Source: a virus. From it: 20,339 nucleotides of DNA. Shown here piece by piece: positions 3,237 to 20,117 of the stretch (positions are counted from its first letter, which is position 1; each line of letters opens with the position of its first letter). The stretch lies in the IMG/VR virus record IMGVR_UViG_3300017753_002155, positions 1 to 20,339 of that record; one strand, written 5' to 3'. The translations under genes were made by a program, and so were the position numbers. The notes beneath the pieces are model-generated. The model was not told the origin of the DNA. It searched no databases and saw only the letters and a list, made by a program, of their open reading frames with translations.

Positions 3237-3643
3237 GCTTTACTGCATCTACATTTGATCTATTACATGCTGGTCATATAATGATGTTGAGAGAAGCAAA
3301 AGCACAATGTGATTATCTAATCTGTGCCTTACAGGTAGATCCAACACTCGATCGTGCTGAAAAGAATTCACCGGTACAAAGTATTGTAGAAAGACAAGCA
3401 CAACTTGCTGCAATAAAATATGTCGATGAAGTCATTATTTATTGTACAGAAGCCGATTTACTTGATATAATAAACATGTACCCGATTAATGTTCGTATAC
3501 TTGGAGAAGAATACAGACAGAAAGATTTTACTGGTAAAGATGAATGTCGTAATCGTGGCATTGAACTTTACTTTAACAAGCGAGATCACAGGTTTTCTAC
3601 TAGTGATTTAAGAAAGAGAGTATCAAATGCAAATGGGAGTTAA
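3212..3643 (+). CDS. TagD/RfaE-type nucleotidyltransferase
   Basis: 143 residues, the whole length of a small cytidylyltransferase-like enzyme such as glycerol-3-phosphate cytidylyltransferase or the ADP-heptose synthase domain. GFTASTFDLLHAGHIMML (9-26) holds the HxGH nucleotide-binding motif (H19, H22). RFSTSDLRKR (127-136) is the family's ISTTxLR-type motif near the C-terminus. It would couple a phosphorylated sugar or polyol to CMP, AMP or another nucleotide. ATG 3212 is chosen, with TGGGAG 6 bases upstream, over a TTG at 3200. It overlaps the phosphomannomutase end by 25 bases and the next gene by 17. Substrate and nucleotide specificity cannot be read from the sequence. Confidence 0.75.
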   Translation: MESTKKIIGFTASTFDLLHAGHIMMLREAKAQCDYLICALQVDPTLDRAEKNSPVQSIVERQAQLAAIKYVDEVIIYCTEADLLDIINMYPINVRILGEEYRQKDFTGKDECRNRGIELYFNKRDHRFSTSDLRKRVSNANGS

Positions 3644-4301
3644 GGATGTCCGAGAACATTTTATTGGAGAACTTGAAAGCAAAGCCTTCACCGTCGACAA
3701 AACTGGACAAAACACAATTGAGTTGCTTGGCGCTTCATTTATTGCAGACGAGCCAGCAATCTTCGGAGTTCCAAACGACGAATACATCACCGCTGAATTG
3801 GATTGGTACCTTTCTGGTAGTACTAATATTAATGACATTTATCGGTGGCCTCAGTATCCTCCTGATAAACAACCCCCAGCTGCTTGGCAATTTGCTGCAA
3901 ATGAGCGTGGTGAGATAAATTCTAATTACGGTCGTCTTATTTTCAGTGATATATATTATAGACAGTACGACAATGTTCTTACACAGTTGTTAGAAAATCC
4001 TGACTCTCGTAGAGCGTCAATGGTCTACCAAAGACCATCAATATGGGTAGAGTATACTGAAAATGGCAAAGGCGATTTTATCTGTACTAATGCTGTTACT
4101 TATTACATTCGCAATGGTGAATTGCAGTGTGTCGTTCAGATGCGATCAAACGATGTCGTGTTCGGATATAAGAATGACTATGCTTGGCAGCTTTATGTTC
4201 TAGAAACTCTCGCTAAAGATCTTGGTGTAGAGCCAGGGTTTATGATCTGGCAAGTACAAAACTTACATGTCTATGAAAGGCATTTCGATCTTGTTAAATA
4301 A
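3627..4301 (+). CDS. 42: dCMP hydroxymethylase (T4 gp42-like)
   Basis: 224 residues, thymidylate-synthase family, with the specific signature of T4 gp42, which converts dCMP to 5-hydroxymethyl-dCMP using methylene-THF. Long stretches agree with T4 gp42 as I recall it: VDKTGQNTIELLGASFIADEP (read in two parts, 23-32 and 33-43), GEINSNYG (95-102), NPDSRRASMVYQRPS (124-138), DFICTNAV (150-157) with catalytic C153, and MRSNDVVFGYKNDYAWQ (172-188). The aspartate D184 replaces the asparagine used by thymidylate synthases to recognise dUMP and corresponds to the residue giving T4 gp42 its preference for dCMP. ATG 3627 follows AGAGAG; ATG 3633 is an alternative. It overlaps both neighbours, consistent with a tightly coupled operon. 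Its presence implies 5-hydroxymethylcytosine in the phage DNA. Confidence 0.93.
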   Translation: MQMGVKDVREHFIGELESKAFTVDKTGQNTIELLGASFIADEPAIFGVPNDEYITAELDWYLSGSTNINDIYRWPQYPPDKQPPAAWQFAANERGEINSNYGRLIFSDIYYRQYDNVLTQLLENPDSRRASMVYQRPSIWVEYTENGKGDFICTNAVTYYIRNGELQCVVQMRSNDVVFGYKNDYAWQLYVLETLAKDLGVEPGFMIWQVQNLHVYERHFDLVK

Positions 4302-4752
4302 GTGGGACATGCGTTATCTACAGCTCGCTGAGGAAGTGGCTGGTTGGTCTAAAGATCCATCCACTAAAATTGGTGCAATTGCTGTAGGTGCTAAAGGTCA
4401 AGTCTTATCGCAAGGTTATAACGGTTTTCCGCGTGGAATTGATGACCACATAGATCTATATAAAGATCGTGAAACAAAATATAAGTATGTCGTCCATGCA
4501 GAAATGAACGTCATATATAATGCTACATATCATGGCATATGTCTTGAAGGTAGTACTTTATATGTCACAGGGTTACCCGTTTGTTCTGATTGTGCAAAGG
4601 GTATTATTCAAGTCGGCATCTCGAGAGTAGTTATGAAAGAACATTTAACACCACAAAAGTGGGTAGACTCATGGAAGACTACATCTCAGATGTTTGATCA
4701 AGTCAATATTAAATGGGAGTTTATCAATGTCAGCAACACAGGAATGGCTTAG
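4267..4752 (+). CDS. dCMP deaminase
   Basis: Zinc-dependent deoxycytidylate deaminase, dCMP to dUMP, feeding dTMP synthesis. The zinc/catalytic motifs are HAEMN (77-81, H77 ligand and E79 proton shuttle) and PVCSDC (104-109, C106 and C109). The N-terminal KWDMRYLQLAEEVAGWSKDPSTK segment (read from 12 on) and NGFPRG (52-57) are typical of dCMP deaminases. Start is uncertain: ATG 4267 or 4273 lies inside the gp42 gene, TTG 4291 would begin just before the conserved KWD, and ATG 4309 would remove it. The upstream choice is kept because homologues normally include KWD. Together with ThyX at 12713 it forms a dCMP to dUMP to dTMP route, and it shares its substrate with the neighbouring hydroxymethylase. 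Confidence 0.87.
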   Translation: MSMKGISILLNKWDMRYLQLAEEVAGWSKDPSTKIGAIAVGAKGQVLSQGYNGFPRGIDDHIDLYKDRETKYKYVVHAEMNVIYNATYHGICLEGSTLYVTGLPVCSDCAKGIIQVGISRVVMKEHLTPQKWVDSWKTTSQMFDQVNIKWEFINVSNTGMA

Positions 4753-4957
4753 AAAAAAATTTCAAGAAGAAGCCAGAACAGCCAGAACTACAGGTGATCT
4801 TTATAACGAATATAGCAATTCAAGATTGACTAAGGAAGTAGAAGATCTTAAAGAAAGGTTAAAAAAGGTAGAAACTGACATGGCATATACACAGAAGATT
4901 AGATTTGCTCAAAGTCCTGAAGAGCAAAGAATAAATGACATAAGGAATATAGATTGA
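4727..4957 (+). CDS. Small helical hypothetical protein
   Basis: 76 residues, strongly charged and predicted to be largely alpha-helical. The middle part (about 30-58: SRLTKEVEDLKERLKKVETD) has heptad-like spacing of L/V and alternating K/E, so a short coiled coil is likely. No recognised family. ATG 4727 has GGGAG 8 bases upstream and overlaps the deaminase end by 26 bases. Its stop TGA is shared with the TTG start of the next gene. The conserved coupling suggests a real gene, but no function is offered. Confidence 0.6.
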   Translation: MSATQEWLRKKFQEEARTARTTGDLYNEYSNSRLTKEVEDLKERLKKVETDMAYTQKIRFAQSPEEQRINDIRNID

Positions 4958-5334
4958 TTCTAGTTATTGGACATAGCCCTTCTTCGAAAGAATACTGTCC
5001 GAGGAAGGGCAATCCATCTATCAACCGTCTTAACAGGTGGCTCGATGCATGTGGTGTGGAGATATACAGCTTCAGCAATGCGTGTGCACACCACGCCCCA
5101 TCTCTTAAAAAGGGTAAGGTTGATGAAACATATATAAAAGAAATAACAAAGTCTTATAATAAAATACTAACATTAGGAAAAGAAGTTTCTAATTATTTCA
5201 CTAAAATGGGTATCGAGCATTACGCACTCCCACACCCATCTCCGCTTAACCGGCAGTTTAATGATAAAGCGTATGAACCAAAAGTCATAAATAACTTAAA
5301 TAACTATTTACAAATAGACTCAACTGTGGTATAA
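4954..5334 (+). CDS. Uracil-DNA-glycosylase-fold protein
   Basis: 126 residues resembling the uracil-DNA glycosylase superfamily. The N-terminal loop after the first strand reads VIGHSPSSKEY (4-14), in the place of the catalytic water-binding motif. NRWLDACGV (27-35) and FSNACAH (40-46) fit the following helix and strand, LTLGKEVSNYF (72-82) the fourth strand and helix, and LPHPSPLNRQF (92-102) is the HPSPLN minor-groove loop of UDGs. It starts with TTG in a TTGA overlap with the previous stop. Its own stop TAA lies inside the -10 box of P3. Whether it excises a base is unknown; the absence of an obvious catalytic acid in the first motif leaves a binding or base-transfer role open. Confidence 0.55.
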   Translation: MILVIGHSPSSKEYCPRKGNPSINRLNRWLDACGVEIYSFSNACAHHAPSLKKGKVDETYIKEITKSYNKILTLGKEVSNYFTKMGIEHYALPHPSPLNRQFNDKAYEPKVINNLNNYLQIDSTVV

Positions 5335-5335
5335 T
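5307..5335 (+). promoter_or_regulatory. Sigma-70-like promoter P3
   Basis: TTTACA at 5307-5312, 17 bp, TATAAT at 5330-5335 within AACTGTGGTATAAT. The TAA stop of the upstream gene (5332-5334) is part of the -10 box. It is followed by a leader ACAATTGAGTAAGGAG (5342-5357) very similar to that of P2. Confidence 0.8.
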
Positions 5336-5363
5336 ATACCTACAATTGAGTAAGGAGCTAAAT

Positions 5364-6602
5364 ATGAAGACTATAATCTTACTCGGTCGTGGTACCGAGG
5401 GTTGCGGTGTTACACAGTGTGCTATTCAAATGCAAAAAGTTCTCAACGCAACAATACTTTCCGCAAATGACAAGAAGTGGGGTAGAGCTAAAGGCCTCGA
5501 AATAGAACAGACAGAAATGAATGTTGGCCAACACTGGGAAGAAATGGCAACAATCATTAACCAATACGATCTTTGCATTGTGTATTCTGTTCCGTCAAAA
5601 TCTCATCCACAGGATTGTCAAGATAATTTCTTAAAACTTCTCGATAATATTAAAATACGTAAAGCGTTTATAAACGTAGATCATAAGGCTGCGTCCATTG
5701 CACGTAATGCTAACCTACCCGAGGTCTGTAAAAAGATGGATGTGATTATGACTCATAGTCTTGAGAATGACTTCTCTCGATTTATGAAGAAAAATAAGAT
5801 CATGGTGACACTCAAGAAAATGTCACTTGGTTTTGACTATGACGGACACAGAGAAAAATACTGGAAGCCAATTGAAGAACAACAGCATGAAATGGTACGT
5901 TGGATTGGCCGCACAGCAATGTGGAAAGGTCCGGCTCTTATGATTGATTGCCATCAGGATGCGCTAATGGATGCTGGCTTTATCACAATACTCGAAGGAT
6001 TAGAAGCATCAATACAATATCCACTCGTATTATATCGTGACAATAAAGAAGATAATCCAAAGGATCGTCGTAAGGTAGTAAATTATTTCAGGCCTGAGAA
6101 GCAGCACGGCGAAACAGGAAAGTTTAAGGATGAAATGCATGGTACCGAACAAGTAAACGAAGGTGCCTATCTCTATCCACAGTATATCAACCATGATTGT
6201 ATGCAGCGCATGGCGTTGTCTGCATTTGGTTCTGATTTGTATCACCTTAAAGCAGAAACCTATGGAAACAATATTGAGAATTGCCATGCAGAAATAATTG
6301 CATGTGGTTCTATTCCAATATTTCATAAACACTTCTGTGATAATGTCATACATAAACTACAGGATAAACCGGTGAGCCTATGTAAAGACACTGGTACAAT
6401 TGGTCTCGACTATACTAACTTTACAGAATGTCGAGATACTATGATCAAACTAAAAAATGATCCATCTATGAGAGATGATTGGCGTGAAATGGCATTTGAA
6501 TTTTGGAAGCAACATTCAGACGGTAAAGAAGTTGTTAACGAAATTGTAGAACTTGCCACAAGCGACGAACACCAACCACAAGGACTAGAGGAATTTTTCT
6601 AA
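5364..6602 (+). CDS. agt: DNA alpha-glucosyltransferase-like glycosyltransferase
   Basis: 412 residues, close to the 400 of T4 AGT, the enzyme that glucosylates 5-hydroxymethylcytosine in DNA from UDP-glucose. Agreement is visible along the chain: GRGTEGCGVT (8-17, T4 has ARGLEGCGVT), SVPSKSHPQDC (75-85), LLDNIK (92-97), VDHKAASIARN (105-115), RWIGRTAMWKG (179-189), ILEGLE (209-214) and AEIIACGSIPIF (309-320), the donor-binding E-x-xACGxIPxF segment. TAAGGAG at 5351 decides ATG 5364 over an upstream in-frame TTG. First gene of the P3 unit, followed directly by two UDP-uronate pathway genes. Acceptor DNA-hmC is well supported by the gp42 homologue nearby; the sugar donor may not be UDP-glucose (inference from neighbours). 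Confidence 0.88.
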   Translation: MKTIILLGRGTEGCGVTQCAIQMQKVLNATILSANDKKWGRAKGLEIEQTEMNVGQHWEEMATIINQYDLCIVYSVPSKSHPQDCQDNFLKLLDNIKIRKAFINVDHKAASIARNANLPEVCKKMDVIMTHSLENDFSRFMKKNKIMVTLKKMSLGFDYDGHREKYWKPIEEQQHEMVRWIGRTAMWKGPALMIDCHQDALMDAGFITILEGLEASIQYPLVLYRDNKEDNPKDRRKVVNYFRPEKQHGETGKFKDEMHGTEQVNEGAYLYPQYINHDCMQRMALSAFGSDLYHLKAETYGNNIENCHAEIIACGSIPIFHKHFCDNVIHKLQDKPVSLCKDTGTIGLDYTNFTECRDTMIKLKNDPSMRDDWREMAFEFWKQHSDGKEVVNEIVELATSDEHQPQGLEEFF

Positions 6603-6603
6603 A

Positions 6604-7554
6604 ATGAAACAGATCTTTATAACCGGCATTGCCGGAATGATTGGCATGCATTGTGCCTTAAAATTTCACGAACTAGGATGGAAGGTATGTGGCATTGATA
6701 ACTTCAATGATTACTACGATACTAAACTAAAATTAGACCGCGAAGAAAAACTCAATCAAAAAGGTATTGAAGTTATCACCGGTGATATTCAGCATCCTGA
6801 TTGTTATAGTGAAGCATTACAATCGTCAGATGCAGTATTACATTTAGCGGCATATGCTAATCCACGGCACTCATACGAGGAGCCACAACATTACATTGAT
6901 ACGAATATTACTGGTACACAACGTATACTTGAACAAGCTGAAATAAACGATACACCGGTTGTATACGCATCGAGTTCATGTGTCATGCATGGCCAACCAC
7001 TTCCATGGAATGAACATGACTTATCGCACCACCAGAATAATGCGTATGGCTGGTCAAAGCGAGCAAATGAATGCCAGTTCATGTATTCAAGACTCAGCAA
7101 AACTGCTGGTCTTCGTTTCTTTACTGTGTATGGTCCGTGGGGTCGACCCGATATGGCACTATTCCTATTTGCTGATGCTATTGTAAAAGGTACACCACTT
7201 ACATTGTTTAACTATGGAGACATGAAACGTGACTTTACTTATGTCGAAGATATTGTACAAGGTGTAGTTCTCGTAACTGATGATCTTATTGCAAAAGAAG
7301 ATGATAAATCACATGAGATTTACAATATTGGTTATGGCAATAAAGTAAACCTAATGGACTTTGTTAATCACATTGAAACTAACTTTGGTCGCAAAGGTGT
7401 ATATGACATGCAACCAGCTCATCCAGCTGATGTACCAGAAACTTGGTCAGATACATCAAAGATAAGAAAGCTTGGTTATGATCCAAAGACACCAATTGGT
7501 AGAGGTGTTTATGAATTCGTAGCTTGGTACAAGGATTACTATAATGTCAATTAA
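6604..7554 (+). CDS. UDP-glucuronate 4-epimerase-like SDR
   Basis: 316 residues, extended short-chain dehydrogenase/reductase, expected to interconvert UDP-glucuronate and UDP-galacturonate with bound NAD. The Rossmann motif is GIAGMIG (8-14). DNFNDYYDTKLK (32-43) and GLRFFTVYGPWGRPDMALF (169-187) are diagnostic of the CapI/GAE group of UDP-glucuronate 4-epimerases rather than of GalE. The active site has S123-S125 and Y148xxxK152. MKRDFTYVEDIVQGVV and the C-terminal DVPETWSDTSKI...GYDPKTPI...WYKDYY also fit the group. It begins one base after the glycosyltransferase stop, behind AGGAA. UDP-glucuronate decarboxylases are related, so UDP-xylose or another product is not excluded. Confidence 0.85.
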   Translation: MKQIFITGIAGMIGMHCALKFHELGWKVCGIDNFNDYYDTKLKLDREEKLNQKGIEVITGDIQHPDCYSEALQSSDAVLHLAAYANPRHSYEEPQHYIDTNITGTQRILEQAEINDTPVVYASSSCVMHGQPLPWNEHDLSHHQNNAYGWSKRANECQFMYSRLSKTAGLRFFTVYGPWGRPDMALFLFADAIVKGTPLTLFNYGDMKRDFTYVEDIVQGVVLVTDDLIAKEDDKSHEIYNIGYGNKVNLMDFVNHIETNFGRKGVYDMQPAHPADVPETWSDTSKIRKLGYDPKTPIGRGVYEFVAWYKDYYNVN

Positions 7555-8365
7555 CATTGCAATTGTAGGACATGGATATGTAGGGAAAGCCGTTGACCAC
7601 GGCTTCTCCACGAGTCAAGTAACAAAGCATATCGTAGATCCAATTTATGGAACTACGATTGACGATATTCTATGTGATAAATTGGATGCAGCTTTTGTCG
7701 CAGTACCAACTCCATTCGGAGCTGATGGTGAGATAGATGCATCAATTGTAGAAGAAGTTGTAAGAGAACTAGGACGTTTCAATTGTCCTATCGTTATTAA
7801 GTCTACAACTACACCTGATGTAGTCGATAAACTTTACTTAGAAAACGATAATGTTGTTTTTAATCCTGAGTTCTTAACAGAAAAGAATGCTTTGCATGAT
7901 TTTATCAATCCGCCTATGCATGTCTTTGGTGGTAAGAGAGCGAATACTAAAGCATTGCTTGAACTATACGAAAATTATTCTCAGTGTACACCTTGTCCAT
8001 CATACCATATGACTGCCAAGGAAGCAGCTTTCGTGAAGTATGGAATCAATTCTTTCCTTGCTACTAAAGTTCTATGGTTTAATCAATTCAAAGATATAGT
8101 TGATGATTATAATAGTAAGTACAATGTGATTGTGAATGCTATTGGTTCAGATCCACGCATTGGTCATAGTCATACTCAAGTACCGGGACCAGATGGCCGT
8201 AAAGGTTTTGGTGGAGCATGTTTTCCTAAAGACACCAATGCTTTTTCTACATTTGCGAAGGGTGAGTTTACTGCCTTAGACGAAGTGATTCGAGCTAATA
8301 ATACATATAGACAAGAATATGAACTTGATGAACGTGAAAAAGAACAGAAAGTAAACTATGACTAA
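7544..8365 (+). CDS. ugd: Short UDP-glucose/GDP-mannose dehydrogenase-like protein
   Basis: 273 residues of the UDP-glucose 6-dehydrogenase family, which oxidises UDP-glucose to UDP-glucuronate with two NAD+. NAD-binding motif GHGYVG (9-14), VAVPTP (52-57), KSTTTPD (86-92), the catalytic-glutamate strand FNPEFLTE (106-113), the substrate-site helix KYGINSFLATK (165-175) and the catalytic cysteine loop GFGGACFPKD (221-230, C226) are all present. Typical members are about 390-450 residues; this one stops soon after the cysteine domain and central helix and lacks the C-terminal UDP-binding Rossmann domain. The stop is clean, with the next gene overlapping by 8 bases, so it looks like a naturally short form. 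It supplies the substrate for the preceding epimerase. Confidence 0.83.
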   Translation: MSINIAIVGHGYVGKAVDHGFSTSQVTKHIVDPIYGTTIDDILCDKLDAAFVAVPTPFGADGEIDASIVEEVVRELGRFNCPIVIKSTTTPDVVDKLYLENDNVVFNPEFLTEKNALHDFINPPMHVFGGKRANTKALLELYENYSQCTPCPSYHMTAKEAAFVKYGINSFLATKVLWFNQFKDIVDDYNSKYNVIVNAIGSDPRIGHSHTQVPGPDGRKGFGGACFPKDTNAFSTFAKGEFTALDEVIRANNTYRQEYELDEREKEQKVNYD

Positions 8366-9557
8366 TTATGCGAGTATAGTACCACTCATAGGTGGTGAAA
8401 CAATTGCTATGCAGAATGTATTTGGTTCTCGGCCTGAGTACATTTTGTCTTATGAAGGATTCGAGGCTAATGATAAGCACTTGGTTGAATACTATAAAAA
8501 TGAAGTTCCTTACCATCTCATTAAAGATGATCAGCTTCCTGATGTTAAGTCTGTTGATGTCATTAACACTGTTTGTCCTTGTGCTGGCTTGTCTAGTCTT
8601 AATGTACATAGCTCTTCCGATGCTGCTGCTAATGATTGGATGCGTACTAGCGCAAAGTATGTACTCGGTACTCTCAAACCAAAAGTGTTTTGGGGAGAAA
8701 ACGCACCAAGACTTGCTAGTAAAATGGGAGAACCTGTTGTCGAAGATCTACGAGAAATTGCAAGAGAAAACGGATATACTTTTTCACTATATAAAACAAA
8801 AAGTATACTCCACGGGCTTTCTCAAGTAAGAGAACGTGCATTTTATTTTTTCTGGAAAGGTGAAAAAGTACCCGTTTTCGAATATATAAAACGGAAACAC
8901 GAAACGATCGAAAGCACAATACGTCTTGTAAAAAACAATGCTGACGATCCGATGAGTGTTCTTACTAACACTAATATACCATCAAATGATCCTTACTATA
9001 AGTATGTCCTAGAAGAAATAGAAGGAGGCATAAGCCACTCTCAATTTCAGGACAAAATTAAAAAGAGTTGTGACGTTAAGCATTACATCGAGGATAGTGG
9101 CGTAAAGTATAATAAGGTAGCAGACTGGATGGACAGGAATGGATATGAAAAGCAATCCACTCGTTGTCGTACAATGTATGAAAAATTAAAGTCAGGCGGA
9201 AACATAATGCGTAGAGGTGTTAATATTCCGAAAGGATATATTGGTGCTTTTGTAGGTTCATATCCTACTTCATTGACTCATCCAGATGAAGATCGTTTCT
9301 TAACAATCAGAGAATGTCTGTCAATCATGAAACTACCAGAGGATTTTATTCTCCAAGGTGGAAACAAAAACATAAATCATATATGCCAAAATGTTCCGGT
9401 GACTACAGCACAGGACATGGCCGAGCACGTCTTAAAATTCTGTGACGGCAGACTTGATAACCGGTTGGTTGATACAGATTTTCTAGTACAAGATAACAAG
9501 ACACGTAGTATAGACTACAAAAAAAGTAGTGTACAATTAGATGAATTTATGGTATAA
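8358..9557 (+). CDS. DNA C5-cytosine methyltransferase-like protein
   Basis: 399 residues with the ordered motifs of cytosine-C5 methyltransferases. Motif IV is TVCPCAGLSSLN (71-82) with the PC catalytic cysteine C75. Motif VI is GENAPR (113-118), ENV-like with the usual form altered. Motif VIII is SQVRERAFYFF (155-165, QxRxR), motif IX is RECLSIMKLPEDF (318-330), and a motif X-like QNVPVTTAQDMAEHV follows. Motif I (VPLIGGETIAMQNVF, 8-22) is degenerate compared with FxGxGG. The region 170-310 would be the target-recognition domain. It is the last gene of the P3 unit, and its TAA lies inside the -10 of P4. In a phage with hydroxymethylated cytosines a C5 enzyme might act before substitution, on host DNA, or have a changed reaction. 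Confidence 0.8.
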   Translation: MTNYASIVPLIGGETIAMQNVFGSRPEYILSYEGFEANDKHLVEYYKNEVPYHLIKDDQLPDVKSVDVINTVCPCAGLSSLNVHSSSDAAANDWMRTSAKYVLGTLKPKVFWGENAPRLASKMGEPVVEDLREIARENGYTFSLYKTKSILHGLSQVRERAFYFFWKGEKVPVFEYIKRKHETIESTIRLVKNNADDPMSVLTNTNIPSNDPYYKYVLEEIEGGISHSQFQDKIKKSCDVKHYIEDSGVKYNKVADWMDRNGYEKQSTRCRTMYEKLKSGGNIMRRGVNIPKGYIGAFVGSYPTSLTHPDEDRFLTIRECLSIMKLPEDFILQGGNKNINHICQNVPVTTAQDMAEHVLKFCDGRLDNRLVDTDFLVQDNKTRSIDYKKSSVQLDEFMV

Positions 9558-12516: not shown

Positions 12517-12713
12517 TGCAAGTATTGTGGCACTTAATGTTAACTGTTTGTATGGATGGAACCTGTGCTAAGCAGGAAGTACAAAGATTTGATCCACCAA
12601 ATGCTAAAGTAAAATGTGAAGTAATGTTGCCAATATATAAAGAAGTTCCTCTAGATAGTGAAGGTGGAACAGTTGAGTATATTTGCAAGCCATTAGGAAG
12701 TGTAGGTACATAA
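12516..12713 (+). CDS. Small hypothetical protein with hydrophobic N-terminus
   Basis: 65 residues. The N-terminus MQVLWHLMLTVCMDGTCA is hydrophobic with paired cysteines C12 and C17. Two more cysteines follow, at C34 and C56. The layout recalls small phage and enterobacterial proteins with a hydrophobic strand followed by C-x4-C, but no family is assigned. It is coupled by TAATG on both sides, between the small gene above and thyX. Confidence 0.55.
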   Translation: MQVLWHLMLTVCMDGTCAKQEVQRFDPPNAKVKCEVMLPIYKEVPLDSEGGTVEYICKPLGSVGT

Positions 12714-13372
12714 TGCAAACAAGACTAATCAGTTATAGTAAACCACCGGAGGAACTCTATGTCGGTAACGATCTCCAAGAACTTATTGCGTACGCAGCCC
12801 GTGTCTCGAATCCCTCGAACCAAGATAACACCGAAACCTCGGAAAAATTATTACGATATCTCATTAGAGAAAAACACTGGTCGCCATTTGAAATGGTTAG
12901 CGCTTGCCTAGAAGTTACAACTACACGTGATATTGCAAGACAATTACTAAGACACAGGTCATTCTCGTTTCAAGAGTTTAGTCAAAGGTATGCTGATCCT
13001 ACACAAGATCTTAAGTTTCAATTTAAGAATGCACGCTTACAAGACACAAAGAATAGACAGAATAGTTTAGATGTAAACGATCCTGACTTAAAATTAGAAT
13101 GGTTGCAACAACAGGCGGAGGTAGTAAATGCTGCAAAAAAATCTTACAATTGGGCAATTGAAAATAATATTGCGAAAGAACAAGCTCGTGCAGTTTTGCC
13201 GGAAGGTATTATGGAATCCCGCTTGTACGTCAACGGGACCATTAGGTCCTGGATCCATTATATCGGATTACGTTCAGGTCATGGCACACAAAAAGAACAC
13301 ATAGAATTAGCCAGATCTTGTGCTGAATCTTTAGAACCAGTATTTCCTATGATAAAAGAATTTTGTAACTAA
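12713..13372 (+). CDS. thyX: FAD-dependent thymidylate synthase ThyX
   Basis: 219 residues, flavin-dependent thymidylate synthase (dUMP to dTMP using methylene-THF, NADPH and FAD). The signature RHRSFSFQEFSQRY (80-93) matches RHR-x7-S. The C-terminal EQARAVLPEGIMESRLYVNG and RSWIHYIGLRSGHGTQKEH segments carry the substrate-binding arginines typical of ThyX. ATG 12713 overlaps the previous stop (TAATG); a longer frame from 12683 is inside that gene. It complements the dCMP deaminase at 4267. The phage thus uses the unrelated ThyX for dTMP while its thymidylate-synthase-fold gene is the hydroxymethylase. Confidence 0.93.
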   Translation: MQTRLISYSKPPEELYVGNDLQELIAYAARVSNPSNQDNTETSEKLLRYLIREKHWSPFEMVSACLEVTTTRDIARQLLRHRSFSFQEFSQRYADPTQDLKFQFKNARLQDTKNRQNSLDVNDPDLKLEWLQQQAEVVNAAKKSYNWAIENNIAKEQARAVLPEGIMESRLYVNGTIRSWIHYIGLRSGHGTQKEHIELARSCAESLEPVFPMIKEFCN

Positions 13373-13394: not shown

Positions 13395-14453
13395 ATGTTT
13401 CGAAAATTACTAGTAGCGGGTGCAATGTTGCTTTCCGCTTTAACTATGGCTCATGCAGAACCAGTTAAAGTTGGATTCGTATACGTAGGCCCAGTTGGTG
13501 ACCATGGATGGACATACCGTCATGACATTGGTCGTCAACAAGTAGAAGAAGCTTTTGGCGATAAAGTTAAAACAACTTACGTTGAAAGTGTTAAGTATGG
13601 TCCAGATGCTGAGCGTACAATTCGTATGTTAGCACAAACCAATGATATTGTATTTGCCACATCATTTGGTTATATGGAGCCAATGTTAAAAGTTGCCAAG
13701 GAGTTTCCTAACGTATACTTTGAACACGCTACGGGATATAAGCAAGCAGATAACATGAGTTCTTATGGATTGCGTCTATACCAAGCACGCCATGTGCAGG
13801 GTATTATTGCGGGTATGATGACTAAGACTAATAAGATTTGTTATGTTGCTGCATATCCTATCCCTGAAGTTATTCGTGAGATTAACACATATTATATGGG
13901 TGCCAAGAAGATGAATCCGGATGTCGACATCGATATCGTATGGGCAAACACTTGGTATAATCCTAGTAAAGAAGCAGATGCTGCTAACGTTATGATGGCA
14001 GAAGGTTGTGATATGGTAGCACAGCACACTGATTCTCCTGCACCATTACAGGCTGCGCAACAACAAGGTAAGTTAGGTTTTGGTCAGGCAAGCGATCAAT
14101 ACAAATTTGCACCTAAGGCACAGCTCACAGCGACCATTGATAATTGGGGACCTTATTACATTAAGAAGGTTGGCCAAGTTATTGCTGGTAACTGGCAAAA
14201 AGAAAACTACTTTGGACATATGAAAGACGGGGCTGTGCAAATGGCGCCATTCACAAATATGCCTGAAGATGTAAGGATTAAAGCACAAGAGATTAAAGAT
14301 ATGATCTCTCATGGTCATTACTTTGCATTTACAGGACCAATTAGAGACAACACTGGTAAGCTTCAATTGAAAGACGGTGAAGTCGCAGATGATATGCATC
14401 TTAATAGTATGATGTACTATGTAGAAGGCATTGACGCTACGGTACCGAAGTAA
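13395..14453 (+). CDS. BMP-family periplasmic substrate-binding protein
   Basis: 352 residues, BMP/PnrA/Med family (type I periplasmic binding fold), the substrate-binding part of ABC importers for purine or other nucleosides. Residues 1-21 form a signal peptide (MFRKLLVAGAMLLSALTMAHA, read as K/R start, hydrophobic core, AHA cleavage site) with no lipobox cysteine, so the product should be free in the periplasm. VGFVYVGPVGDHGWTYRHD (from 27), the central GIIAGMMTKTNKICYVAAYP (about 135-154) and WYNPSKEADAANVMMAEGCD with VAQHTDSPAPLQAAQ are characteristic. AGGGAGA precedes ATG 13395. No transport permease or ATPase gene is in the window, so it would have to work with the host's importer. It is probably host-derived (inference) and sits with a 2OG oxygenase in the uvsX-thyX unit. 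Confidence 0.88.
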   Translation: MFRKLLVAGAMLLSALTMAHAEPVKVGFVYVGPVGDHGWTYRHDIGRQQVEEAFGDKVKTTYVESVKYGPDAERTIRMLAQTNDIVFATSFGYMEPMLKVAKEFPNVYFEHATGYKQADNMSSYGLRLYQARHVQGIIAGMMTKTNKICYVAAYPIPEVIREINTYYMGAKKMNPDVDIDIVWANTWYNPSKEADAANVMMAEGCDMVAQHTDSPAPLQAAQQQGKLGFGQASDQYKFAPKAQLTATIDNWGPYYIKKVGQVIAGNWQKENYFGHMKDGAVQMAPFTNMPEDVRIKAQEIKDMISHGHYFAFTGPIRDNTGKLQLKDGEVADDMHLNSMMYYVEGIDATVPK

Positions 14454-15313
14454 TGATTCCAGTAATTGATTTCACTAGTGAATCAGTATTGGACCAGATA
14501 CGCGAGGCCTACACTACCGTAGGCTTCGCAGTATTTACTAATACACTCACATCTAATGACCAGCGTATAATGTATCGTTGGTTTGAGGACATGAAAGGTT
14601 TCTTTGAATTAGACATAGAAACTAAAAAGCAATATTCATATCAAGCTGAAAATAATTTAGGATATAGCATAATGGGTGCAGAGAATGTAGATCCGACTGC
14701 TCCTAAGGATATGAAAGAAAGTTTTAATTACAATAATACTCGAATGCCAGAAGAACTCTGGCCGCGAGAAGTAGAAGGTTTCAAAGAGAATGGTTTAGAA
14801 ACTATTCGAATTGCAGATGATTTAACACTGAGAATTTTAGAAAAGTTTGATACTATTCTTGATACGGGTACTACACTCGTGGATGCACACCAAGATCCTT
14901 ATAATACTACACGTGTTATACACTATCCCGCGTACACGGGCCCGCTCGAAGATAAACAAATGAGAATTGGAGAGCACAGCGATTACGGTACTATTACGCT
15001 TCTGTGGCAGATTAACGATGTTCCGGGACTCGAAGTACAAGATCTCGAAGGATCATGGCACGCGGTACCGTATGCAAATGATGGAGTAGTAGTTAACATT
15101 GGTGACTTACTACAACGTTGGACTAATGATTACTTTGTGAGTACAAAGCATAGAGTTGTAAATACTCATATAGATCAGACACGATATAGTATGCCACACT
15201 TTGTAGATCCTACACCGGGTACTATGATCGTAAATCTTAGAGATGAACCGAGTAAATATGATCCGATTGAAAGTAAAGAGTACTTAATGTGGAGATTAGC
15301 ACAGAGTTATTAA
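14453..15313 (+). CDS. 2-oxoglutarate/Fe(II) oxygenase, isopenicillin-N-synthase-like
   Basis: 286 residues, non-heme iron 2OG dioxygenase of the isopenicillin N synthase-like group. An N-terminal DIOX_N-type region (IPVIDF at 2-7, GFAVFTN at 24-30) precedes the jelly-roll core. The iron ligands are H175 and D177 (GEHSDYGTITLL) and H233 (STKHRVVN). The 2OG-binding RxS is R244-Y-S246 (RYSMPHF), and the typical VNIGDLLQRWTND (214-226) is present. TAATG coupling to the BMP gene suggests the two act together. Relatives hydroxylate small molecules, including free nucleobases in some organisms. A nucleoside or base substrate would fit the neighbour, but this is inference. It is the last gene of the unit; a weak hairpin and promoter P5 follow. 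Confidence 0.87.
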   Translation: MIPVIDFTSESVLDQIREAYTTVGFAVFTNTLTSNDQRIMYRWFEDMKGFFELDIETKKQYSYQAENNLGYSIMGAENVDPTAPKDMKESFNYNNTRMPEELWPREVEGFKENGLETIRIADDLTLRILEKFDTILDTGTTLVDAHQDPYNTTRVIHYPAYTGPLEDKQMRIGEHSDYGTITLLWQINDVPGLEVQDLEGSWHAVPYANDGVVVNIGDLLQRWTNDYFVSTKHRVVNTHIDQTRYSMPHFVDPTPGTMIVNLRDEPSKYDPIESKEYLMWRLAQSY

Positions 15314-19028: not shown

Positions 19029-20117
19029 ATGCCACCACGTAATCATAGTAATTGGACTAAGACACCGAAGGTAGAATATATTAGTAGTGAGTGCTACAAT
19101 AATTATGAGATATTCAAACAAGAACAAGAAGATATATTTGCTAAAGTTTGGATTCCTATGTGTCATATAAGTGAGATGTATGACTTAGGTTCTTTCAGAA
19201 CAACTCAAATTGCAGGTGTCAATGTTTTAGCAGTTAATTCTAATTTTGGTGTAAAGGCATATAAAGATCATAATATTAGAACTCCCAGTGGAGTAATGAG
19301 TAGTTTACCTGATGAAGGAACAGAGCTACATTGTGAAGTAAAACATGGTGGAATGGTTTGGGTAACACTCGATCCTAATCCATCACAGAGTGTAGAAAGC
19401 TGGACAGCCGGCGCTTTCGATTGTATTGCAGATGCAATCGATACAGAAGAGATGGAAGTATTTCACTATCATAAAGCAGTTATAGATACAAACTATAAAC
19501 TGTGGCATGATACAAATAGTGAGTTCTACCACGACTTTATGCATTACTTTAATAGAGTATCAGGATTTAATGATGAATACTTTGCTAGAAAGAATATTCC
19601 TTTTGATAATGGTCACGTCAATGTCAGCAGTTTTACTGTTAACTATGAAGAATACGATGGGTTTGAGGATCGAGGTGAACTCTCATTCCCCAACTTACCA
19701 CCGAACCAGTGGTACATGGTTGACCTCTTCCCAGGATTTAACTTCAACCTACGTGGCAGCGCATATCGTTCTGACGCGGTAACACCGTTAGGACCAAACA
19801 AAGTATTGATCGAGTTCCGTGGTTATGGACTCAGGAAAGATACACCAGAAGAAAGACAGACTAGAATAAAGCATCATAATTCTATTTGGGGACCATTCGG
19901 TCGCAATCTCCATGAAGATTTAATCGGTGTTGCAGGTCAAGGTACGACCATGAGAGAAGGTACCGAAGCAAGAAACATTCTACACGGCCGTCATGAAAAT
20001 TCTACAATTCATGATGAAGTAGGTATGAGACATTATTATGAGGCATGGGGAAATATGTTAGGGGTAAACCCAATGAACCCTCTCACAACACAGGAGCTAA
20101 GTAGAAAAGCTGCATAA
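19029..20117 (+). CDS. Rieske-type oxygenase-like protein with altered cluster site
   Basis: 362 residues aligning in outline with the large subunit of Rieske non-heme iron oxygenases. The N-terminal part FAKVWIPMCHISEMYDLGSF (37-56), VNVLAVNSNFGVKAY and the HGGMVWVTLDPNP strand (106-118) follow the Rieske domain. The C-x-H...C-x2-H cluster motif is altered: the first pair reads K79-D-H81, and the second is C102-x3-H106. The catalytic domain keeps a likely mononuclear iron site, NYKLWHDTNSEFYHDFMH (155-172), with H168 and H172. AAGGAG just after the tmRNA serves ATG 19029, so it is probably transcribed from P6 with the tmRNA. It could have lost electron-transfer ability, bind a different metal centre, or have a non-oxygenase role. 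Substrate unknown. Confidence 0.75.
   Translation: MPPRNHSNWTKTPKVEYISSECYNNYEIFKQEQEDIFAKVWIPMCHISEMYDLGSFRTTQIAGVNVLAVNSNFGVKAYKDHNIRTPSGVMSSLPDEGTELHCEVKHGGMVWVTLDPNPSQSVESWTAGAFDCIADAIDTEEMEVFHYHKAVIDTNYKLWHDTNSEFYHDFMHYFNRVSGFNDEYFARKNIPFDNGHVNVSSFTVNYEEYDGFEDRGELSFPNLPPNQWYMVDLFPGFNFNLRGSAYRSDAVTPLGPNKVLIEFRGYGLRKDTPEERQTRIKHHNSIWGPFGRNLHEDLIGVAGQGTTMREGTEARNILHGRHENSTIHDEVGMRHYYEAWGNMLGVNPMNPLTTQELSRKAA

Follow-up and report, generated by a model that had tools for sequence, protein, structure and literature searches.

A candidate locus for uronic sugar modification of 5-hydroxymethylcytosine in a marine T4-like phage

The virus record IMGVR_UViG_3300017753_002155, analysed here over its full 20,339 nucleotides (the window), is part (20.3 kb) of the genome of a marine T4-like phage, whose UvsX matches that of phage C48C1 (Kyanoviridae) at 75%. 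Positions 3627-8365 encode a dCMP hydroxymethylase (HMase), a DNA glycosyltransferase of the T4 alpha-glucosyltransferase (AGT) family, a short-chain dehydrogenase/reductase (SDR) of UDP-glucuronate 4-epimerase (UGAE) type and a short UDP-glucose 6-dehydrogenase (UGD). The leading explanation for this locus, which we favour with moderate confidence, is that a uronic sugar, galacturonic acid (GalA) more likely than glucuronic acid (GlcA), is placed on 5-hydroxymethylcytosine (hmC). A preliminary description of the window had proposed transfer of such a sugar to hmC; synthesis of hmC, a DNA-directed AGT and a phage-encoded donor supply are all supported, while the identity of the sugar is something we infer. 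A narrower proposal is that marine T4-like phages carry alpha-galacturonosyl-hmC and that the locus is an example of an exchangeable "decoration slot" between the dCMP deaminase gene and a gene for a C5-cytosine-methyltransferase-like (C5-MTase-like) protein. We put this forward tentatively, at a little under even chances. The slot would then hold other chemistries in sister phages: a plain AGT, a TET-associated glycosyltransferase (TAGT), a UDP-galactopyranose mutase with a GT-B transferase, or an inositol-phosphate-synthase-like protein with a 5-hmdU-DNA-kinase-like protein.

Hydroxymethylcytosine synthesis and the DNA glycosyltransferase

The HMase gene (3627..4301, + strand) encodes a 224-aa protein of the T4 gp42 family (PDB T4 gp42, E=1.6e-67). 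Its C153 and D184, correctly picked out in the preliminary description, correspond to T4 C148 and D179, and its E57 to the hydration Glu, T4 E60; the catalytic Cys, cytosine-specific Asp and hydration Glu are invariant in 48/48 relatives. In RB69-type phages an HMase homologue produces 5-hydroxycytosine (PMC13390438). The window enzyme shares 54% identity with a Tequatrovirus gp42 and only 26% with the Mosigvirus enzyme, and at 67 discriminating columns it is gp42-like at 47 and of Mosigvirus/Dhakavirus type at 2; in the Mosigvirus and Dhakavirus enzymes Phe takes the place of T4 Glu60. On this comparison, of residues and discriminating columns alike, 5-hydroxycytosine was rejected as the product of the window enzyme. 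The dCMP deaminase gene (4267..4752, +; PF00383 2.7e-19, phrog_174 2.3e-42) overlaps the HMase gene, and a T4-type dNMP kinase (PF21448) was not found in the records of six relatives. Since a separate ThyX is encoded at 12683-13372, the gp42-type enzyme is not required for dTMP. We conclude that synthesis of hmC is strongly supported as a prediction for this locus.

The AGT gene (5346..6602, +) was described as a homologue of T4 DNA alpha-glucosyltransferase, and the profile and structure searches agree: PF11440 matches over nearly the full length (3e-36; 125.7 bits against a cut-off of 25 bits), and the match to PDB 1y6f (1e-45) spans residues 7-399 of this GT-B protein. The C-terminus reads GLEEFF and resembles a polymerase C-terminus, TLEDFF. 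A terminus of the [TS]L[ED]xFF type also ends ORFs of ~810-876 aa that correspond to the DNA polymerase in related phages, and the C48C1 counterpart of these is annotated as DNA polymerase. The motif ends 56/59 AGTs of the window clade and 77/107 C5-MTase-like proteins and is absent from all 323 SDR, UGD, HMase and dCMP deaminase sequences; these sequences are kindred, and the Fisher value for the counts therefore overstates their independence. This distribution, on proteins that act on DNA and not on metabolite enzymes, fits a tether to the sliding clamp for the former only. T4 AGT binds the sliding clamp gp45 (PMC13216743), and the C-terminal peptide of the window AGT is likely a clamp-binding motif. 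Because AGTs and phage DNA polymerases have this peptide in common, the window AGT probably acts on DNA at the replication fork. A transferase of AGT type directed at DNA is thus strongly supported by sequence.

Two candidate signatures of the donor pocket were rejected. The first position of an EX7E-like motif is Asn in the window clade, in the SDR-linked clade b and also in unlinked sister sequences, and does not discriminate. K106 (window 5661-5663) is Lys in 76/76 SDR-linked AGTs of two separate clades and hydrophobic in 19/19 unlinked ones, a perfect correlation, yet its position seems wrong for contact with the sugar.

Donor-sugar enzymes, gene linkage and rival explanations

One nucleotide behind the AGT lies the SDR gene (6604..7554, +). 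Its best PDB matches are 5u4q, named a dTDP-glucose dehydratase by its depositors and carrying the same FFTVYGPWGRPDMALF signature as the SDR, followed by the UDP-GlcA 4-epimerases 6zl6 (Bacillus cereus) and MoeE5 (6kv9). The earlier assignment to the UDP-glucuronate 4-epimerases directly behind the glycosyltransferase is therefore upheld. The SDR scores 119 bits against UGAE structures, compared with 60 bits against UDP-xylose synthase (UXS) and ~67 bits against Escherichia coli GalE. In the B. cereus UDP-GlcA 4-epimerase the determinants are Thr126, Ser127, Ser128, Thr178 and Arg185, and decarboxylases have Glu in place of Ser128 (PMC7984243, PMC12338863). The equivalents of Thr126, Ser127, Thr178 and Arg185 are S/T124, S125, T174 and R181 in 71/71 phage SDRs, and the Tyr-Lys pair Y148/K152 is equally conserved (71/71). 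The Ser128 equivalent is Cys126 in all 71, neither the Ser of the epimerase nor the Glu of the decarboxylases. Given these residues, a uronic substrate and 4-epimerisation (UDP-GlcA to UDP-GalA and back) are likely, and decarboxylation is unlikely. A role as UDP-xylose synthase or ArnA-type decarboxylase was considered and rejected on the Cys in place of the catalytic Glu and on the low UXS score.

The UGD gene (7544..8365, +) encodes only the NAD-binding (PF03721) and central (PF00984) domains. C226, K165, N169, D230, E109, E113 and T88, the catalytic residues of the family, are invariant in 69/69 sequences. An AlphaFold model (pLDDT 80) matches the solved UGDs 1dli (E=3e-14) and 3plr, and relatives are mostly 264-305 aa long, with one of 245 aa. 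The preliminary description of a UDP-glucose dehydrogenase-like protein in this unit is thus borne out, with the qualification that the protein is truncated: it amounts to a catalytic core of UGD type rather than the canonical full-length enzyme, and is predicted to convert UDP-Glc to UDP-GlcA. A short UGD of 256 aa also occurs in Campylobacter phage CP21 (contig L121, 6992-7762), close to genes for QueE-like and other radical SAM proteins, which suggests that short UGDs of phages may be found repeatedly beside DNA-modification genes.

We counted linkage at related AGT loci with enough flanking sequence (82 for the SDR), so that denominators differ by gene. The SDR directly follows the AGT in 81/82 loci, at a distance of 0-24 nt in 77 of these; UGD occurs in 68/73 and the HMase lies upstream in 29/31. 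Among non-redundant loci, clade a of the AGT tree has the SDR in 52/52 and UGD in 47/52, and clade b comprises 7 loci with both genes and 13 with neither; SDR linkage has switched at least three times on this tree. An unrelated transferase without a Pfam match ("GTc") fills the same slot with the SDR in 9/12 non-redundant loci, UGD in 7/12 and UDP-galactopyranose mutase in 3/12. Its model (pLDDT 74.5) matches GT-B glycosyltransferases, and the top TM-score among the listed matches, 0.51, is to T4 beta-glucosyltransferase. Three different glycosyltransferases are thus found in this slot in sister phages, ahead of the same SDR and in most cases accompanied by UGD. Conversely, UGD and SDR were missing from 8/9 contigs searched that have a clade-b AGT alone or TAGT, most of these contigs being incomplete. 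Because the donor genes come and go together with transferases in the hmC slot, which is the best evidence available, we conclude that the role of UGD and SDR in serving the slot transferase is well supported. Together with the conserved active sites, this coupling and cassette swapping make supply of UDP-GlcA/UDP-GalA by the phage to an AGT-type transferase well supported.

The slot has further contents in sister phages. In L172 (6236-10004) it encodes three proteins: one like myo-inositol-1-phosphate synthase (PF01658), one like 5-hmdU DNA kinase (PF18723) and an uncharacterised one of ~330 aa with a clamp-type C-terminus. The same content recurs in L155, L156, L158, L173, L177, L178 and L179, and an inositol- or phosphate-linked hmC modification is possible. 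In L114 (7241-10109), and also in L122-L127 and L199, the slot has a GT-B transferase and a UDP-galactopyranose mutase (PF03275), in most cases also a short SDR, and a furanose sugar on hmC is possible. In L185 (9178-9999) and L160 (1714-2526) the slot is a lone protein of 270-273 aa with a clamp-type C-terminus; that of L185 matches TAGT (PF20691) and lies behind a dCMP hydroxymethylase.

The proposed pathway to a uronic sugar on hmC would run as follows. The HMase would convert dCMP to hmdCMP, the dCMP deaminase would help to set the nucleotide pools, and replication would bring hmC into DNA. Phage UGD would oxidise host UDP-glucose to UDP-GlcA, which the SDR would convert to UDP-GalA. The AGT-family transferase, tethered to the clamp through its C-terminal peptide, would then take the uronic sugar off UDP and attach it to hmC in new DNA. 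T4 AGT is a retaining enzyme, and for this reason an alpha linkage would be expected. The product would be galacturonosyl-hmC, or less likely glucuronosyl-hmC, and such extra-charged DNA may resist restriction and DNA-glycosylase defences. What the sequences show directly is the families of the enzymes, their active-site residues, the coupling of the genes and the C-terminal motif; from these we infer the activities, the binding to the clamp, the sugar, its linkage and a role in defence.

Several observations weigh against this pathway, and some of them favour its main rival, in which the transferase, like that of T4, takes UDP-glucose from the host and gives glucosyl-hmC, while the sugar made by UGD and SDR goes into a glycan of the host surface or the virion, for instance in a change of O-antigen. 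No glycosyltransferase residue could be linked to a carboxylate, and K106, compared with other GT-B enzymes, presumably sits at a strand end remote from the active site and sugar. The UDP-binding C-terminal domain (PF03720) is absent from UGD in the window and in all relatives. A clade-a-like AGT (52%) and an HMase occur on a 52-kb contig (L080) that has neither UGD nor SDR. In C48C1 and L110-L112 the replication region contains SDR and UGD and lacks HMase, AGT and C5-MTase-like genes, and the pair can therefore serve another purpose. Members of the AGT family with known activity use UDP-glucose (T4), and UGD and rfaE-like genes of pelagimyophages have been interpreted as lipopolysaccharide (LPS) genes (PMC7029224). 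Nevertheless, we consider the glucosyl-hmC alternative unlikely: adjacency of AGT and SDR is nearly invariant, the SDR/UGD pair accompanies three different transferases of the DNA locus, and the pair is also missing from 8/9 contigs searched in which a clade-b AGT stands alone or a TAGT is present.

We also weighed an hmC that carries a pentose, either xylose or arabinose, with the decarboxylation downstream of UDP-GlcA carried out by an enzyme of the host or by the SDR. Cytosines bearing arabinose have been described in phages (PMC13390438, PMC6024577), and mutation can turn UGAE variants into weak UDP-xylose synthases (PMC12338863). However, the phage SDRs all have Cys where a decarboxylase has Glu and keep the equivalent of Arg185, which holds the UDP-GalA carboxylate (both 71/71), the cassette has no UXS-like second SDR, and UXS scores are far below those of UGAE; we regard a pentose as the least probable of the explanations considered. 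Only a small chance, too, attaches to a uronic sugar that is processed further, or to another sugar (amidated, methylated, a disaccharide or galactose), in which the C5-MTase-like protein, the uracil-DNA glycosylase (UDG)-like protein or the upstream genes for a PMM-like HAD protein, a nucleotidyltransferase (NTase) and a cupin would take part. The C5-MTase-like gene, with its clamp-type C-terminus, is nearly constant in the unit (57/59), and PMM-like HAD, RfaE-like NTase and cupin genes lie just upstream. On the other hand, the NTase is also present in phages without an HMase, and the cassette has no known acyl- or amidotransferase.

Locus layout and neighbouring genes

All genes claimed for 3627-8365 were found at their given coordinates, on the + strand and in a single compact array. 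The preliminary description had missed the dCMP deaminase in the array, the truncation of UGD and the C5-MTase-like gene that overlaps UGD. The HMase, dCMP deaminase, AGT, SDR, UGD and C5-MTase-like genes form a nearly gapless + strand array, with intergenic distances of -35 nt (HMase/dCMP deaminase), 11 nt (UDG-like/AGT), 1 nt (AGT/SDR), -11 nt (SDR/UGD) and -8 nt (UGD/C5-MTase-like). The C5-MTase-like protein (8358..9557, +; PF00145 1.2e-18) is divergent; it keeps motifs IV, VI, VIII and X, motif I reads PLIGGE, and its C-terminus, LDEFMV, is a clamp-type motif. Its gene lies downstream of the AGT in 57/59 loci. Between the dCMP deaminase and AGT genes is a small UDG-superfamily-like protein of 126 aa (4954..5334, +), with GHSP and HPSP motifs and a PF03167 match (1.1e-4) slightly under the cut-off. 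It is retained in many relatives, often in the cassette, and possibly acts on modified or deaminated bases.

A candidate promoter with an extended -10 element, TTTACA-N17-TATAAT (11/12), lies at 5307..5335 (+) directly before the AGT, which makes plausible the unit that the preliminary description had drawn from a promoter "P3". The next site of this type is at 9530, before UvsX, and consensus matching in the window found none between 5307 and 9530; the AGT, SDR, UGD and C5-MTase-like genes may for this reason form a single transcription unit. Promoter-like matches in the window barely exceed chance (45 against 37.8 +/- 6.2). In relatives, the same site is found upstream of 16/54 AGT and 43/102 UvsX genes, and of 0/85 UGD and 0/123 C5-MTase-like genes. 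The extended -10 motif (TGTAC or TTTAC ... TGGTATAAT) recurs at window positions 33, 1833, 5307, 9530, 15348 and 18746.

Elsewhere in the window are metabolic genes for a BMP/PnrA-type substrate-binding protein (13395-14453), a 2-oxoglutarate (2OG)-Fe(II) oxygenase (14453-15313) and the alpha subunit of a Rieske-type oxygenase (19029-20117). The BMP-family gene matches SAR116 bacteria at 76%, which is a hint only at a SAR116-like host.

Known systems and implications

The locus resembles the glucosyl-hmC system of T4 (gp42 and AGT, PF11440) in its HMase family and catalytic residues, its AGT family, a probable link of its transferase to the clamp and its position in the replication region. In contrast to T4, the window AGT, only ~28% identical, has the phage's own UGD and UGAE-type SDR right behind it, no beta-glucosyltransferase was seen, and a C5-MTase-like companion is present. 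The preliminary description had cited arabinosyl-hmC in RB69 as a precedent, which fails because the arabinose of RB69 sits on 5-hydroxycytosine, not hmC (PMC13390438). RB69 and other Mosigvirus phages are nonetheless alike in that phage sugar-nucleotide genes feed a DNA glycosyltransferase and the cluster lies between polymerase and UvsX; they differ in their 5-hydroxycytosine synthase (Phe at T4 E60) and sugar genes, with no hmC and no UGD or UGAE. Phage UGD and UGAE-type SDR share active-site determinants with bacterial UDP-GlcA 4-epimerases (BcUGAepi, MoeE5, CapI type) and UGD, which take UDP-Glc through UDP-GlcA to UDP-GalA in capsule operons. They differ in the change of Ser128 to Cys, the missing C-terminal domain of UGD, their place in a phage replication operon and their coupling to a DNA glycosyltransferase.

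Acidic DNA adducts had been suggested to be undescribed. The suggestion has to be narrowed to hmC, since in Bacillus phage SP-15 phosphoglucuronolactone is attached to a modified uracil (PMC5977210). SP-15 likewise has a phage UGD in a DNA hypermodification cluster and a glucuronic moiety on the base; its base is a dihydroxypentyluracil, however, with the sugar joined by a phosphodiester, plus glucose, and without an AGT or dCMP hydroxymethylase route. The literature searched, which covered few subscription papers and no bioRxiv, contained no report of a glycosidic bond between a uronic acid and hmC.

If the uronic sugar reading is true, the sugar modifications of DNA would extend from neutral sugars to an acidic one glycosidically linked to hmC, drawn from a phage-encoded two-enzyme UDP-sugar pathway that is coupled to a transferase probably tethered to the replisome. 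The reading would also give the UDP-glucose dehydrogenase genes of marine phages a testable explanation other than a role in lipopolysaccharide. The swapping of cassettes in a fixed slot suggests that DNA decoration changes rapidly, probably driven by host defences that recognise particular modified bases, such as type IV restriction and DNA glycosylases, for example Brig1.

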